NCBI RefSeq assembly: GCF_900112255.1
Contig: NZ_FOLE01000001.1
Span: forward strand, 620,001-684,000
Length of the DNA stretch: 64,000 nt
Direction: 5' to 3'
Source of the DNA: Flexibacter flexilis DSM 6793
GTDB lineage: Bacteria; Bacteroidota; Bacteroidia; Cytophagales; Flexibacteraceae
Within the stretch, counting starts at the first letter, position 1. Each line of letters opens with the position of its first letter. Below are positions 1,522-13,803 of this stretch, piece by piece. The translations under genes and the position numbers were made by a program. The notes beneath the pieces were generated by a model. It ran no database searches. It worked only from the letters and a program-made list of their open reading frames with translations, and was not told the DNA's origin.

Positions 1522-1725
1522 CTATTCCTTTTGTTCTGGCTTTTGAGATTCTTTAACCGCATCCCGAAGCAACCATAAAAATTCAAATAAGTCTGATTTA
1601 ATTGGCTTTTCTGCTTCCAAACTCACCAGTGTGTAGTGCATTACTATTTCGTCGATATATTGTTCGGCAACTTCTGGGTCAAAATTGCGCGTGAACACGT
1701 CTATTATTGGTTGCGGATTTAGCAT
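1522..1725 (-). CDS. hypothetical protein, last gene of the early operon
   Basis: A 67-aa acidic, helical protein (LNPQPIIDVFTRNFDPE at the N-terminus). I recognise no family. Its ATG overlaps the end of the Rha gene by 7 bases. Unusually for this genome it has a strong Shine-Dalgarno, AGGAGGTG, 4 bases before the ATG, encoded inside the last codons of the upstream gene (Glu-Glu-Gly-Gly-Val). This makes the start quite certain and suggests translation partly independent of the upstream gene. Confidence 0.55.
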   Translation of the reverse strand: MLNPQPIIDVFTRNFDPEVAEQYIDEIVMHYTLVSLEAEKPIKSDLFEFLWLLRDAVKESQKPEQKE

Positions 1726-2360
1726 GATACACCTCCTTCTTCCTGAAATGGAATATCTAATTGCATTTTACTTGCTTCTAACATTAGTTGTTTAGTTGCA
1801 TCGAGATGATTGGCGTAGTCTGCCGTAATAAACGTGCGGCCAAATACCTTGAAAAAATGCGTACCAAACTTTTTGCGGCGGCCATAAACCGAGCCGCTAC
1901 GTGTGCTAAACCCAACGGCTCTAAGCACGTCTATGTAGCAAAAGCATTTTACGCCCGTATGCACCACTGGTTGCAAACCTGCAAACTTACCTTGCTGCTC
2001 TGCTGGCAAAAAGTAGCTGTGCAATTGCGCCTCCATTTTATCGAAGGCTGCAATGTAGGCTTCTTTGAAGGCCATCGCATTTTCGCCAGTGTAACCCATG
2101 ACAAGCATCACGAAGCCATTTTTCGTTATCTGATACTCAGGACGTTCTTTCCCTTGTTTGTCAAGATAAGAGGTGGGTACAAAATTGTACCCGCCGAATT
2201 CTGGCGAGCAACCCAGTTCCCTGATGTCGCGCATTACTATTTTGTGTTCTTTCCCGAAGGCTTGGGCTACCTTGCGGCTGGTAGTGATGGGCTGCCCGTT
2301 GTTGGCAATTACCATTTGCTCGTTTTTTGTCGGAGCTGGACTTTCTTTCTTGTTAGGCAT
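1719..2360 (-). CDS. rha: Rha family phage regulatory protein
   Basis: A 213-aa protein whose N-terminal part (residues about 16-110) matches the Rha (pRha) domain: TTSRKVAQAFGKEHKIVMRD, RELGCSPEF, then YLDKQGKERPEYQITKNGF and MGYTGENAMAFKEAYIAAFD. The C-terminal 90 residues form a second domain that may be another DNA-binding module (RAVGFSTRSGSVYGRRKKFG). In the family, Rha of phage phi80 interferes with growth in cells lacking IHF, and related domains are common phage regulators. It is preceded by a 218-base leader with unusual inverted repeats that enclose the start codon. It is the penultimate gene of the leftward early operon. Confidence 0.85.
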   Translation of the reverse strand: MPNKKESPAPTKNEQMVIANNGQPITTSRKVAQAFGKEHKIVMRDIRELGCSPEFGGYNFVPTSYLDKQGKERPEYQITKNGFVMLVMGYTGENAMAFKEAYIAAFDKMEAQLHSYFLPAEQQGKFAGLQPVVHTGVKCFCYIDVLRAVGFSTRSGSVYGRRKKFGTHFFKVFGRTFITADYANHLDATKQLMLEASKMQLDIPFQEEGGVSC

Positions 2361-2530
2361 AAGAAAAGTTTTTGCACAAAAATACCATGTTACTTAGCTG
2401 TGCCTAACAATTACCGCCGAGGCGAGGAATCTGTACGGTCGTTTCCTATCGTACCAGCTTATAACATGGTATTAATGTTATTTTCGAGAAAATTTGTCGA
2501 GTTTTGAACCTCAACAGTAATTATTAGGCA
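2350..2530 (-). promoter_or_regulatory. structured leader of rha with competing inverted repeats
   Basis: Four helices can be drawn in the minus-strand RNA. H1 pairs 2530-2509 with 2422-2401: 22 consecutive pairs including 4 G-U pairs. H2 (7 bp, 2481-2475 with 2467-2461) is nested in H1. H3 pairs 2473-2462 with 2392-2381: 12 perfect pairs. H4 pairs 2410-2401 with 2359-2350: 10 perfect pairs covering bases 2 to 11 of the rha reading frame. H1 and H4 share an arm and exclude each other; H3 cannot nest with H1 or H4. This looks like a translational switch, but it is inferred from base complementarity alone. DNA operator use of the palindromes is the alternative. Confidence 0.5.
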
Positions 2531-2578
2531 TAGCAAATGTGAAAGGTAAATTTCAGAAATGCAAATGTTTGGGTAAAA

Positions 2579-2977: not shown

Positions 2978-3005
2978 AAAGCCCACGCATTACACGTAGG
3001 CTTTG
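2978..3005 (-). terminator. hairpin after the 138-aa gene (copy 1 of a repeated hairpin)
   Basis: In the minus-strand RNA a 10-bp stem (AAAGCCTACG / CGTGGGCTTT with one G-U) closes a 7-base loop TGTAATG, about 18 bases after the stop of the gene at 3023-3439. A nearly identical hairpin follows the next upstream gene. It lacks a long T run, so it may be a processing or attenuation element more than a strong terminator. Confidence 0.45.
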
Positions 3006-3457: not shown

Positions 3458-3484
3458 AAAGCCCACGCATTACAAGTAGGCTTG
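3458..3484 (-). terminator. hairpin at the end of the 87-aa gene (copy 2 of a repeated hairpin)
   Basis: Nearly the same sequence as the hairpin at 2978-3005: the stem AAGCCTAC / GTGGGCTT and the loop TGTAATG are conserved. Here it overlaps the last codons and the TAA stop of the gene at 3470-3733. Confidence 0.45.
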
Positions 3485-6724: not shown

Positions 6725-7032
6725 TTTTTTTATTGTTAAAATTTGAAATTATACATTTTGCCATTTAAGGCGCAAACGGTAGTTTTAGGTTGATTTTTTA
6801 GCCTTTCTCGTAGGATTTTTTGGGTTTGCAGTTATGGCTTCAGCTTCTTTAATTCGTTCCTTAATAGCGTAGGCCACACTGCAACTTATCCCTTTTGGCC
6901 CAGAATTGGCATAGAACTCTAATGCGTCAAATATTACATCTTCAACCCATTCAGGGTGGGTCTGACTCTCAAGCTCATCTAATATAATTTGCTTAGCAAT
7001 CGACATTTTTTTATTGTTAAAATTTGAAATTA
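6722..7032 (-). repeat. duplicated translation leader (6722-6751 and 7004-7032)
   Basis: The 29-30 bases that precede and include the start codons of the DUF3164 gene and of the 73-aa gene are the same apart from one T in the poly-A/T tract. On the minus strand each reads TAATTTCAAATTTTAACAAT followed by A residues and ATG. This points to a copied ribosome-loading region; such A/T-rich leaders suit the Bacteroidota, which rarely use Shine-Dalgarno. Confidence 0.7.
6785..7006 (-). CDS. hypothetical protein, early operon (73 aa)
   Basis: A 73-aa protein with a helical body (MSIAKQIILDELESQTHPEW) and a strongly basic tail (NPKNPTRKAKKST), which could contact nucleic acid. No family recognised. 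Start is supported by the leader it shares with the DUF3164 gene. Confidence 0.45.
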   Translation of the reverse strand: MSIAKQIILDELESQTHPEWVEDVIFDALEFYANSGPKGISCSVAYAIKERIKEAEAITANPKNPTRKAKKST

Positions 7033-7080
7033 AAAACTGTGAATCAGATACTTAATGTGTATCAAAGACTGTTCCACTAA

Positions 7081-8680: not shown

Positions 8681-9330
8681 TGCTGTAAGATGTTTTGGCC
8701 GTGAAACAATGCTGCTCGCTCTTCGTCAATGATTAGGTTTCCGCCTTTGCACCTGCCACCGACATTGGCAGCAAGACCCTGCACGCGCACTATGATTTTA
8801 GCCAACTTTTTAATGAGCTTACCCGTTGCAGTCGTCGGCTCGTTGCGCTCTTCGTGGGCTAAAAACACAAATAGTACGCTTGGGAAATCATGCAACAACT
8901 TGCGAAAAACACCATTCTTGAGTTCGTCGGCATAAATTGTGACGTTGTCGATGAACACTACCTTAGCCGCTTGCCGCCGTGAAAGTCTTACACGCAGTTC
9001 GTCGATGGATTCGTATTCCAAAAACAAAATGTTGCTTGTTTTGTCTGTAATTCCTGCACGCCCAACGGCTTGGCAGAACGCTGCCCCAGTACCCTCTTCC
9101 GCCGACACATATAACACTTGCTGAAATTGAGCTAAGTGCTTGGCAAGCAGCAAGGCAAACCATGTCTTGCCGTTTTTTTCATTTCCGTAAATTATCCAAG
9201 CTCCGAACTGTTCGGGCTGCCCGAATACCTCCGCCCACTGGTTACCGAACTCGAATAACTTGTGTGTTTTGTCAAGCAAATTTTTCGGCGACAAGGCGCG
9301 AGACAGTGTGACTCTGTTAATATCTGTCAT
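8677..9330 (-). CDS. second P-loop ATPase of the prophage (RecA-like fold)
   Basis: A 217-aa protein starting at ATG 9330, which overlaps the MuB-like gene by 14 bases. Walker A is YGNEKNGKTWFA (G-x4-GKT, about residues 49-56) and Walker B is KVVFIDN (about 123-129), with AEEGT after the second strand (about 77-81). The order A, EE, B, then a sensor-like strand ending in AHEERNEP, resembles RecA/DnaB/RadA-type ATPases more than AAA+ loaders. It could be a phage helicase-loader or DNA-remodelling ATPase working beside MuB; the role is not established. Next to a MuB-like gene it makes a tandem of two different ATPases. Confidence 0.65.
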   Translation of the reverse strand: MTDINRVTLSRALSPKNLLDKTHKLFEFGNQWAEVFGQPEQFGAWIIYGNEKNGKTWFALLLAKHLAQFQQVLYVSAEEGTGAAFCQAVGRAGITDKTSNILFLEYESIDELRVRLSRRQAAKVVFIDNVTIYADELKNGVFRKLLHDFPSVLFVFLAHEERNEPTTATGKLIKKLAKIIVRVQGLAANVGGRCKGGNLIIDEERAALFHGQNILQQ

Positions 9331-10234
9331 TTTGCTGCTGATTTTCAAGGATTAGTAACAAACTTTCAGCCCGACGCAACCCGCCAATCTCACCCTGCGA
9401 ATCATTCTCCAAGCACTTATTGACAATCATACTCATGTGATTACTGTCGCTCATGTTGGCGGCCAATACATCAGTAATGAGTTTCTTGTAAAATGCTCGG
9501 CGGTCTTGCACACCCGTCGGCACTGTCGTAGTATAGCGTTCAGAGAATCTTGAGAACAATTCGCGATAGCCTACTTTACGAGTCCTGATTCCCGATGTGA
9601 TTTTTTGGCGAAGGCCATCTGCACCCATCAAATACCAACCGCAAGCATTTTCGGTAGCATTCCATAGCTCCTTTAGCTCAAGGAAGGCTGGGTAGTCCAA
9701 ATCTCCAGCCTCATCTATGATAATCACTGGCTCAATCAGCTGCTTGGTGTAATACTTTAGGTTAGCCTTCACCTCAGAATACTTACCTGTTGAGTCGATG
9801 CCTATTGTTTTGGCCAACAGTCGGATAAACAATTGCTTTGTTTTAGCTTGGCTGGCATCAACATAGAAGCAATTTTGGCGTGTTTTAGCTAAGTATTTGG
9901 CCGAAAAAGTCTTGCCAATGCCGCAATCATCTACACAGATGCGTGCTTTCGCATTTTGCTGACAGAATACAATGTCTTCGGATATGATTTTGAAAACATC
10001 TGTCTCGGCCACACTCCACTTACGTTCGCGCAAATCAATTCCAAGCTCGCGGCCAATATTAAGCAGCACACTTTCGGCAATAATATTAGCGCGTTCACCA
10101 TTTTTCAAGCGCGAATATATCGCGGGCGATATACCGTAACGCTTGGCGTAAGCGGCATCTGAGCCGCCAAAATTTTCGCGCTGCTCCATCAGAGCCACAA
10201 TTACTTTTTCTTTAAATTCTTCGGAAAGTTTCAT
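9317..10234 (-). CDS. MuB-like transposition ATPase (AAA+) with N-terminal HTH
   Basis: A 305-aa homologue-type of phage Mu B, the ATP-dependent target-DNA selector and transposase activator. Residues about 24-45 form an HTH (SDAAYAKRYGISPAIYSRLK), as in MuB. Walker A is DDCGIGKTF (residues 102-110, Lys108, Thr109) and Walker B is VIIIDEAGD (170-178, Asp174, Glu175). An arginine-rich region follows (KITSGIRTRKVGYRELFSRF), as expected for the AAA+ sensor/arginine finger area. It lies 18 bases after the transposase stop, in the same order as Mu A-B. The leader has CCCC 7 bases before the ATG. Confidence 0.85.
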   Translation of the reverse strand: MKLSEEFKEKVIVALMEQRENFGGSDAAYAKRYGISPAIYSRLKNGERANIIAESVLLNIGRELGIDLRERKWSVAETDVFKIISEDIVFCQQNAKARICVDDCGIGKTFSAKYLAKTRQNCFYVDASQAKTKQLFIRLLAKTIGIDSTGKYSEVKANLKYYTKQLIEPVIIIDEAGDLDYPAFLELKELWNATENACGWYLMGADGLRQKITSGIRTRKVGYRELFSRFSERYTTTVPTGVQDRRAFYKKLITDVLAANMSDSNHMSMIVNKCLENDSQGEIGGLRRAESLLLILENQQQNDRY

Positions 10235-10252: not shown

Positions 10253-12286
10253 TTAAAATCTTTCAAATAATGTTATCCTAGGAAAAGCAGGCACTAACAC
10301 TTCGTCATCGTCTGGTGGCGGTGGCAAAATTGCTGCACGCTCACTGCTGACTGTTGCTTTAGGTTTGTTATTGCCCGTGATACTGAAGTCATTAAATCGT
10401 CTCTTTGATTCGTCGATAAAAATCACTTGCTCAATTGCATTGCGTTTGTTTCGCCCGTAGGCTTCGATTGTGGCGACGTACGCAGACATTATTTCGCGTT
10501 GCGCCAAATCGTCTGGCGTTTGTTCCAGCACCGCACGAGCATATCTTGGTTTGGCTACGGCCTCGCACATGAGCGTTGAGCCGCCGCGTAAGTACACCAG
10601 TGCTTTGATTACTTCGCCGTCGTTGCCGTCCAGCCAATAGATGTCTAAGTCTTGGCCTTCGCATCTGCTCATCAGCGTAATAAGCTCATCGCCTAATGCT
10701 ACTTTGCCGTTATTTCCAAGCAAAAACAGCTTATTATTAAGCCTGATTTGGCCTGCATTGCAGCTTGTTTGGGTCTTAAAGCCCAAGTGCGGCAATATGC
10801 CTTTCCAGTTCGTTGGCTTGAGCTTCGGGTGCTGATTTTCCAAAAACACCTGCCAGCGGCTTTTGTCTGTGTGTACGCTGTGAGGCGAATTGTTCCACTC
10901 TTCGATGTCTGCCAAACAACCATCTACGATTGTTTGATACAAGAGCTTCGGTTGCTTGTCTGGTCCTGCCTGATTGGCTTCTGAAAGTGCGAATGGTCTT
11001 GCCAGCCAACCAGTTCGCTGCTTTTCGTAGCGGTAGCGCAATTCGCCGTAGTAGCGTTCTATGCGTTTTCCGCGTGCGTTGTTCGCCTCGATGCGCACTT
11101 CCTGAAACATTGCACCTTTTTTCAAGAAAGTATCTACGAATGAAGAGTTTAACGCGCTTTCTGCCTCTATCTCATGCGGCATCGGCAAGCCCCATTCGTG
11201 ATAATTGCGCACCAACTGGCGATAGAAATCAACGATAATTCCCTCTTTCGATTTCCCGTGTACCCAGCACGTGAAGGCTTCGCTTCCTAAATCAATTGCG
11301 TTGTAGAACCAGATGCGTTCACCATCAATTTCCAAGCACTTAAACGGCGGTTGGCGGTCATCTACCGAGATTATCGAACCTGCATACTTTGGTTTTTCCA
11401 AGCTATGTGGCGTTTTGAAGGCCGTCATAAACTTCTGACGGTCGCCGCTTCTAATGCCATAAGTCGCAATCTTCGATTTCCACGACTTCAGATAATTATG
11501 CACTGTCGCTTGGCTTAACTCCTTGAACATGGACGGGTTATACTCCTCGCCTGTATCTGTGTTGATTAGCTTGGCCGAGCCTGCCAAAAACAACGAATAT
11601 CGTCTGTGTATTTCAGTGGCCGTTGGCTTCTGTGAGTCTTTCGCGAACATCGCCTCAAGCACTTCCAGCACTGTATCGGTTACTTTTTGGGCGTTTTTCT
11701 TGCCCAATTTCTGCGACACCAGTACCACATATCCCTCTGATTGATAGCTTTTAAACGTCTCTTTAAAGCGTTTTTCGCTTTCGGGCAAGTTGTGCTGCAC
11801 CTGATACTTTGCTTTAAGCACCTCGTTAAAGCTCGCTACATCGCTGCATATCGTGGCCATGATGCCAGTCGTCTTGCCACCTTTCGTAATTCGCTCCTGA
11901 CGGCGAGCGGCCATGAGCTTAATCGCGGCATTTAGCACACAGGCATTAGTGATGTAAAGCTCCTGATGCTCATCGGATAAGGCTCTCGCGTCATCGAATC
12001 GGTAATCTGAGAAGAATCTCACGGCCTCAGCATCGACCGTGTAAAATCGCTCCATGATATGATTCAGCTTGCGAGGGTCGCCCAGTGCCTCACGTATTTC
12101 TATCGGCAGGCTATCGAAGGCAATCAATAATTGGCGGCCATTACCTCCAGACTGCAATCGCTTAATCCCGTAAGACTTATCTTTATAGCGTTGTATCTCA
12201 CTTTTCAGCGTATTCCATGTAGCAAAAAAACTTGGTACAAGTTCATCTTTCGTTACGACAACTATATTATTCCAGAAATGAGGCAT
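10253..12286 (-). CDS. MuA-like DDE transposase
   Basis: A 677-aa transposase. The N-terminal 300 residues contain the end-binding helical domains. The catalytic RNase H-like core follows: ISVDDRQPPFK (Asp309/310), then IEAESALNSSF (Glu374), then RIEANNARGKRIERYYGELR (Glu410). The 36-residue spacing from Glu374 to Glu410 and the NNARGKRIE signature fit the third catalytic Glu. At the second catalytic position MuA has Asp in the sequence IDN, while here the aligned residue is Glu. The C-terminus has a Mu-type beta domain (LNNKLFLLGNNGKVALGDEL) and a Pro/Asp tail (PPPPDDDE) that may contact the MuB-like ATPase. It cuts and joins the phage ends during integration and replication. Confidence 0.88.
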   Translation of the reverse strand: MPHFWNNIVVVTKDELVPSFFATWNTLKSEIQRYKDKSYGIKRLQSGGNGRQLLIAFDSLPIEIREALGDPRKLNHIMERFYTVDAEAVRFFSDYRFDDARALSDEHQELYITNACVLNAAIKLMAARRQERITKGGKTTGIMATICSDVASFNEVLKAKYQVQHNLPESEKRFKETFKSYQSEGYVVLVSQKLGKKNAQKVTDTVLEVLEAMFAKDSQKPTATEIHRRYSLFLAGSAKLINTDTGEEYNPSMFKELSQATVHNYLKSWKSKIATYGIRSGDRQKFMTAFKTPHSLEKPKYAGSIISVDDRQPPFKCLEIDGERIWFYNAIDLGSEAFTCWVHGKSKEGIIVDFYRQLVRNYHEWGLPMPHEIEAESALNSSFVDTFLKKGAMFQEVRIEANNARGKRIERYYGELRYRYEKQRTGWLARPFALSEANQAGPDKQPKLLYQTIVDGCLADIEEWNNSPHSVHTDKSRWQVFLENQHPKLKPTNWKGILPHLGFKTQTSCNAGQIRLNNKLFLLGNNGKVALGDELITLMSRCEGQDLDIYWLDGNDGEVIKALVYLRGGSTLMCEAVAKPRYARAVLEQTPDDLAQREIMSAYVATIEAYGRNKRNAIEQVIFIDESKRRFNDFSITGNNKPKATVSSERAAILPPPPDDDEVLVPAFPRITLFERF

Positions 12287-13306: not shown

Positions 13307-13371
13307 TGTTATTATTGTGTTACGTTTGACGTTACAAATATGGACAATATATTTACTAAAATCCAAATTTT
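13307..13371. promoter_or_regulatory. divergent early/repressor switch region
   Basis: The repressor promoter (+) has TTG at 13326-13328 and TATATTTA at 13348-13355, 19 bases apart (consensus TTG-N19-TAnnTTTG, one mismatch). On the minus strand the best early promoter has CATATTTG (13342-13335) with TTG at 13366-13364. The two overlap, so binding of one regulator can block either. TGGAC (13341-13345) and TCCAAAT (13362-13368) recur in a palindrome downstream of the repressor gene (13822-13835), so they are candidate operator half-sites. Confidence 0.5.
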
Positions 13372-13803
13372 ATGGAAAATAAATTTACCAATATCAAAGA
13401 GCGAGTACTTCTTATTGCTGAAAATAAAGGAGTTAGCAAAGAAATTTTTTTTGCTAATATAGGTATGACCTATGGCAGTTTTAAGGGAGAGGCGAAAAAG
13501 ACACCACTAAATTCTGATGCAATAGCCAATATATTGACCATATATTCAGACATTAGTGCTACATGGTTATTAACTGGCAAAGGTTCGATGCTTATTGATG
13601 CAGATTCAGCCAGCCCCGCCGTAGAACCTTCATCAATAAGTACCGCACAGCAACAGACGATAGAGGCACAGCAGCAAACCATAGAAGCGCAGCAGCAGAC
13701 TATTGCGCAGCAGGCTATGATGGTTCAGATGCTCATGGCTCAGTTGGAGGAATGCAAAAAAAGTAGCACGACTACTCGTATTCATGTTACCCAGCCATCT
13801 TAA
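13372..13803 (+). CDS. CI-like phage repressor with C-terminal heptad repeat
   Basis: A 143-aa protein. Residues 5-75 form the HTH domain common in Bacteroidota prophage repressors (FTNIKERVLLIAENKGVSKE, GMTYGSFKGEAKKTPLNSDA, then SATWLLTGKGSML). There is no LexA/CI-type peptidase domain. In its place there are three heptads of the type QQQTIEA (residues about 93-113), encoded by three 21-bp repeats at 13648-13710, and then a Met/Leu helix (MMVQMLMAQLEE). The tail is probably a coiled coil that mediates dimer or higher assembly. It is divergent from the early operon, in the position of Mu c. A short 5' leader of about 10 bases is expected. Confidence 0.75.
   Translation: MENKFTNIKERVLLIAENKGVSKEIFFANIGMTYGSFKGEAKKTPLNSDAIANILTIYSDISATWLLTGKGSMLIDADSASPAVEPSSISTAQQQTIEAQQQTIEAQQQTIAQQAMMVQMLMAQLEECKKSSTTTRIHVTQPS
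13648..13710 (+). repeat. three 21-bp coding repeats (heptads of the repressor)
   Basis: Units start at 13648, 13669 and 13690 with CAGCAACAGAC, CAGCAGCAAAC and CAGCAGCAGAC. Each encodes QQQTIEA or a close variant. Slippage could change the coiled-coil length in steps of one heptad without a frameshift. Confidence 0.8.

Follow-up and report, generated by a model that had tools for sequence, protein, structure and literature searches.

A probable c4-type antisense RNA control unit for the antirepressor-like gene rha in a Mu-like prophage of Flexibacter flexilis

How is the start codon of rha, an antirepressor-like gene carried by a prophage of Flexibacter flexilis DSM 6793, covered or exposed? 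The gene is preceded by a 218-nt gap containing complementary arms that cannot all pair at once, and the original prediction saw in these arms a logic like that of a riboswitch or a translational attenuator. The window analyzed here is a stretch of 64,000 nucleotides (contig NZ_FOLE01000001.1, positions 620,001 to 684,000); its left 14 kb belongs to a Mu-like prophage in a genome of 4.25 Mb. The locus probably controls rha through a c4-type antisense RNA. Its parts and the prophage genes mentioned below are listed in Table 1.

Table 1. Features of the rha locus and selected prophage genes (positions in the window)
Feature	Coordinates	Strand	Remarks
Predicted Bacteroidota promoter	2534-2565	-	TTTG (2565-2562), 20 nt, CACATTTG (2541-2534)
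Target copy 1 (a1), a1b1-like, 5' arm of helix 1	2509-2530	-	Predicted transcript 5' end; 22 contiguous pairs with 2422-2401 (18 Watson-Crick, 4 G-U)
c4-2-like antisense RNA domain	2381-2471	-	Closing stem, inner stem, GNRA-capped hairpin, antisense loop
Closing stem P1, 5' strand (helix 3)	2462-2473	-	12 pairs, all Watson-Crick; P1 of the c4-2 model
Closing stem P1, 3' strand	2381-2392	-	Pairs with 2473-2462; followed by a short U run
c4 hairpin P2	2433-2454	-	GUACG/CGUAC with a GAAA loop; GGAAAC conserved in c4-2
Antisense segment a'b' in the c4 loop	2401-2422	-	Partners: a1 (22 bp) or rha start (10 bp)
Target copy 2 (a2), a2-like half site	2350-2359	-	Spans rha start codon and codons 2-4 (rha bases 2-11); 10 pairs with 2410-2401 (helix 4), all Watson-Crick
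rha, Rha-family antirepressor-like regulator	1719-2360	-	213 aa; PF09669, E = 7.9e-30; regulated gene
Transposition ATPase	9317-10234		PHROG
Transposase	10253-12286		PHROG
Repressor-like gene	13372-13803	+	PHROG

Complementary arms and promoter upstream of rha

Recomputation reproduced all of the coordinates and pair counts that had been given for helices 1, 3 and 4. The four G-U pairs of helix 1 turn into A-C mismatches on the opposite strand, and helix 1 therefore forms in the minus-strand RNA only, as had been proposed. Helices 1 and 4 are mutually exclusive because one inner arm is common to both. Helix 3 had also been described as conflicting with these two helices. It does no more than cross both of them, and with loops of 35, 39 and 8 nt a pseudoknot of helix 3 with the crossing helix should be sterically possible.

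The complementary arms are real and go beyond chance. The longest helix in the gap has 23 pairs, compared with a maximum of 14 in shuffled sequences (n = 300). Folding of the minus strand gave a z-score of -5.4, which none of 200 shuffles equaled, whereas the plus strand gave -2.2. A helix of 10 bp at the rha start was matched by 3 of 5000 shuffles when Watson-Crick pairs were counted and by 356 of 5000 once G-U pairs were allowed. The states containing helix 1, helix 3 and helix 4 have energies of -51.3, -49.6 and -48.7 kcal/mol, respectively (positions 2531-2320, pseudoknots excluded). These three states lie within about 2.6 kcal/mol, so that near-equal states are predicted for the rha leader; the original prediction had named such states as a check.

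The upstream arm contains a duplicate of the rha start (ATGCCTAATAA / ATGCCTAACAA), and a CCTAA core is kept in both copies. The presence of this duplicate had been recognized correctly, but its description as a decoy is replaced here, as it corresponds to the a1b1 target site of phage P1.

A promoter is predicted upstream of every arm, and the arms are thus expected to be transcribed. The pattern TTTG-N19-21-YANNTTTG was scanned across the 64 kb and gave 10 matches versus 4.35 expected, another of which (13335-13367) is located before the phage early operon. The -7 box ends 3 nt before target copy 1. Of 23 c4-2 loci in another genus, 18 have the same box, with a gap of 3-4 nt between its end and their first target copy. 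Transcription is predicted from these signals to start near 2531-2528, at about 2530, which is the first base of a1.

A c4-2-like RNA and its relatives

Scanning 501 bases against all Rfam families with cmscan identified a c4-2 RNA (RF02944) on the minus strand at 2471-2381, with 36.2 bits, E = 4.4e-6 and model positions 1-79 covered. This was the sole meaningful match, and it falls short of the RF02944 gathering score of 41. Matches to MIR2646 and MIR5272 were rejected as chance. No riboswitch family was matched in the region, and the C4 family (RF01695) was not listed by cmscan, which reduces overlapping clan members to the best one.

An independent model (R1) was built without the window sequence from 18 aligned c4-2 RNAs; another genus supplied 17 of them and a viral contig the remaining one. 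In its training alignment 96.7% of the cells are paired, and 19 of the 25 stem pairs show two-sided changes (0 of 500 shuffles). A search of the 64 kb with R1 returned the same minus-strand interval with 34.6 bits and E = 1.1e-6, the next match having an E-value of 1.7. That second match (2979-3001) is a small repeated hairpin and not a c4 RNA. In the whole 4.25-Mb genome the single R1 match is again 2471-2381 (E = 7.4e-5); at this scale RF02944, with its stricter filters, passes over the genome's own copy.

The Rfam match and the independent R1 match identify helix 3 as a c4-type closing stem and 2422-2401 as the antisense loop. Folded alone, the domain has an energy of -32.6 kcal/mol and a z-score of -4.05. 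The closing stem, a 4-bp inner stem, the GNRA-capped hairpin and an AGG...CUAA linker are present in the order of c4-2. The P3 region, which in c4-2 is a small hairpin presenting the variable antisense loop, is longer and diverged (20 versus 11 positions in c4-2), and the local hairpin drawn there by RNAfold differs. The locus probably works like C4. As its score stays below the gathering threshold and one of its two targets is incomplete, it is not formally assigned to RF02944.

Relatives of this RNA were found in a genus of the same class (f74 g102), where c4-2 is present two to six times per genome in most carriers. Nearly all of these loci share one layout: TATnTTTG, 3-4 nt, TCCTAA with a variable stretch of 7-9 nt, the c4-2 RNA, TCCTAA with the identical variable stretch, and the ATG of a gene of 77-79 aa. 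At every such locus (about 20) the c4 loop is complementary to this variable stretch, and the loop is the most variable part among c4-2 relatives. Pairing of the loop with its own a1 scored 16.2 and with swapped a1 sequences 10.0; the corresponding values for a2 were 16.4 and 9.8. Neither difference was reached in 20,000 permutations of the 19 distinct alleles. The same layout of promoter, a1, c4 and a2 was detected in a viral contig and in a second genus from the taxonomic order of F. flexilis, where at least two of the six genomes have it. The arms are kept and covary in relatives, at c4-2 loci with other target genes. Loss of the arms, absence of covariation or a promoter downstream of 2400 had been named as refuting; the relatives and the predicted promoter position instead speak for a function.

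The other c4-2 loci of Bacteroidota found in this analysis precede proteins of 77-88 aa of unknown function, whereas rha is the downstream gene here. The 77-aa gene of genus f74 g102 (...WLNELAEILDPYLDVE) has no Pfam or PHROG match. One chromosomal c4-2 site adjoins an AsmA-like gene, and the convergent cargo varies by species (C5 methylases, Vsr, HNH_2). Other sites have a KAP NTPase, NsnB/QueC-like genes or ordinary housekeeping genes as neighbors. A tandem pair of c4-2 RNAs (L021/L043, G578:C4:20366-20566) has no recognizable 77-aa gene and no good targets, and these may be orphan or trans-acting copies. A pattern scan of viral contigs gave four chance matches in coding sequence and the one true c4-2 RNA mentioned above.

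No second Bacteroidota prophage with both c4 and rha was found, and covariation was accordingly tested on relatives with other target genes. A nucleotide search of phages and of the genome itself revealed no copies of the locus. A search with the Rha protein in 395 genomes of the class returned one other close match and two weak ones with PF09669; no c4 fold is obvious in the upstream regions, and cmscan of five upstream regions detected none. Two viral contigs with MuA relatives contain neither rha nor c4.

A broader reading can be put forward tentatively. The c4-2 RNAs of Bacteroidota might constitute a general, reprogrammable antisense module, in which the loop co-evolves with two copies of an initiation region, the first copy being the transcript 5' end. 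Such a module might act at start codons without Shine-Dalgarno pairing and serve both phage antirepressors and chromosomal genes for 77-88-aa proteins, several of which are located beside restriction-modification or defense cargo.

Control of rha and alternative explanations

In the record of phage P1 the promoter P1c4 is followed by a1, b1, the C4 RNA, a2, b2 and icd-ant. The order is the same here, with the promoter, the upstream arm, the c4 domain, the start-codon site and rha. Rfam names RF03163 'a1, b1 targets of C4 antisense RNA', and the site that a P1-type system requires between promoter and c4, complementary to the loop, is present as target copy 1. A P1-type C4 also requires an antirepressor as the regulated gene, and it acts in trans as a processed RNA of about 77 nt. 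The rha product matches Rha-like and anti-repressor families of PHROG (best 1.3e-47) and, together with PF09669, these families point to an antirepressor. The C4 RNA of P1 and P7 (RF01695) is likewise a small multi-stem RNA with an antisense loop that pairs with both targets and controls an antirepressor. Unlike RF01695, the present RNA has no sequence match to that family, and its target lies on the start codon and not on a ribosome-binding site. The locus also differs from P1 in that a2 is a half site only, in place of the bipartite a2b2 target, no icd-like open reading frame is present, and the host phage is a Mu-like phage of Bacteroidota.

Canonical C4 RNAs directly precede rha in two other phages, Vibrio phage 10N.286.54.F9_PE001 (69 bits) and Aeromonas phage LPM4 (74 bits), and C4-type control of rha is therefore not unique to this prophage. 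The c4-a1b1 matches before C4 in these two phages are below the gathering score. A further example is sar of phage P22, an antisense RNA whose pairing at initiation silences an antirepressor (PMC12197685). In Comamonas aquatica, sRNA-Xcc1 (RF02221, 71 bits, outside the C4 clan) is located upstream of rha (L002:833-919). Its fold resembles C4, and its loop pairs almost equally well with an upstream segment (-25.4 kcal/mol) and with a part of the rha leader that includes AGGAG (-26.8 kcal/mol); sRNA-Xcc1 may thus be a C4-type antisense RNA. In integron cassettes, sRNA-Xcc1 has been reported to precede the toxin gene symE (PMC12444791).

In P1 and P7, RNase P releases the C4 RNA from the leader, and the loops of the freed RNA choose the target and bind it around the initiation site (PMC5320573; PMC12197685). 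By analogy, the rha transcript would begin at a1, and its leader would carry the c4 RNA and end with target copy 2 at the start codon of rha. The c4 RNA, once released by processing, would fold via helix 3 and expose the antisense loop. Acting in trans, the loop would pair with the start codon of rha and the three codons that follow it, so that initiation would be blocked and rha would be off in the lysogen, with a presumed effect on the phage repressor through Rha. Because the loop can also be captured through helix 1 by the 5'-terminal a1, the c4 RNA of a new transcript may be sequestered, which would impose a delay or a threshold ahead of silencing. Switching would occur when new transcripts outnumber the c4 RNA, releasing rha from repression. 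RNA-level control at the rha start, as originally proposed, is supported.

The two targets are unequal, which is unusual. The duplex of the loop with a1 has an energy of -40.9 kcal/mol and that with a2 -19.3 kcal/mol, whereas the pairs are balanced in P1 (-35.8/-35.5 kcal/mol), the Vibrio phage (-23.3/-25.4 kcal/mol) and Aeromonas phage LPM4 (-38.7/-34.5 kcal/mol). The rha site is a half site, with 10 bp at the start codon versus 22 bp for a1. Its helix is the longest uninterrupted one among 319 open reading frame starts; by duplex energy rha is not the best partner. This inequality offers a clean test of the role of the upstream copy.

The strength of a1 as a partner also fits a rather unlikely alternative modeled on IsrK of the Salmonella prophage Gifsy-1. 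Competing long helices and an upstream complementary segment precede the antirepressor there (orf45-anrP), and the short, terminated IsrK RNA binds its own long transcript and activates its translation (PMC4825925). Applied to rha, a short a1 RNA from the same promoter would capture the c4 loop of the long transcript in trans and turn on translation from an otherwise inactive leader. Matches to isrK overlap a1b1 upstream of C4 in P1, Vibrio phage PE001 and LPM4. No terminated short RNA is evident at the rha locus, however, and a terminator between a1 and c4 is not prominent, one terminator-like site (2516-2495) being found versus 2.2 expected in the region.

Transcription attenuation of the pT181 type is unlikely. 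The closing stem and its U residues would form a terminator, pairing of a1 with the loop would allow read-through, and c4 RNA bound to a1 in trans would favor the stem. The 12-bp stem is followed by a U run at 2381, and GGGUUUUA directly follows the stem in most c4-2 loci. A stem loop of about 70 nt, however, is unlike an intrinsic terminator, and the closing stem is not called by the terminator scan. For P1, Rho-dependent polarity is described instead.

The c4 RNA could act mainly elsewhere, on another phage or a superinfecting relative, with the match at rha being a decayed half site. The short rha helix, the far stronger a1 and the unexceptional rha duplex energy are consistent with this idea. 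Against it, the genome itself contains no site other than a1 within 3 mismatches of the loop, the position and order of the parts agree with P1 and with the c4-2 loci, and the 10-bp helix lies on the start codon, which makes the idea improbable. Control by a riboswitch or translational attenuator in cis only, with the arms of one leader switching upon binding of a ligand, a protein or a ribosome, accounts for the three near-equal states but is very improbable, since the inner domain has been identified as a c4-type antisense RNA whose P1 precedent is processed and acts in trans, the loop of the relatives varies allele by allele with its targets as antisense specificity would, no conserved ligand pocket is present and Rfam gives no riboswitch match.

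The c4-type antisense unit thus favored would represent a P1-style lysogeny switch in a Mu-like phage of Bacteroidota, where masking of a ribosome-binding site should not work in the way that it does in E. coli. It would also provide the c4-2 family, for which a literature search found no described target, with a likely target and a layout.

Neighboring features of the prophage

The prophage contains the transposition and repressor-like genes listed in Table 1, and DUF3164 was also found in this region. To the left of the window, the sequences of several open reading frames look like those of terminase, portal, capsid, sheath and tape-measure proteins. A pair of 36-nt AT-rich direct repeats (6725-6760 and 7006-7041, 89% identical) is located upstream of two consecutive early genes; the repeats may represent promoters that were duplicated, or protein sites. 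A 26-nt hairpin-forming repeat, AAAGCCCACGCATTACACGTAGGCTT, occurs at 2978-3003 and 3458-3483 (96% identical) after two small early genes, and the copies are possibly terminators. Flanked by the early genes and the c4 promoter, a small lipoprotein-like open reading frame (MKNVIILSLVALMATACGG..., 2579-2893) is a possible moron gene.
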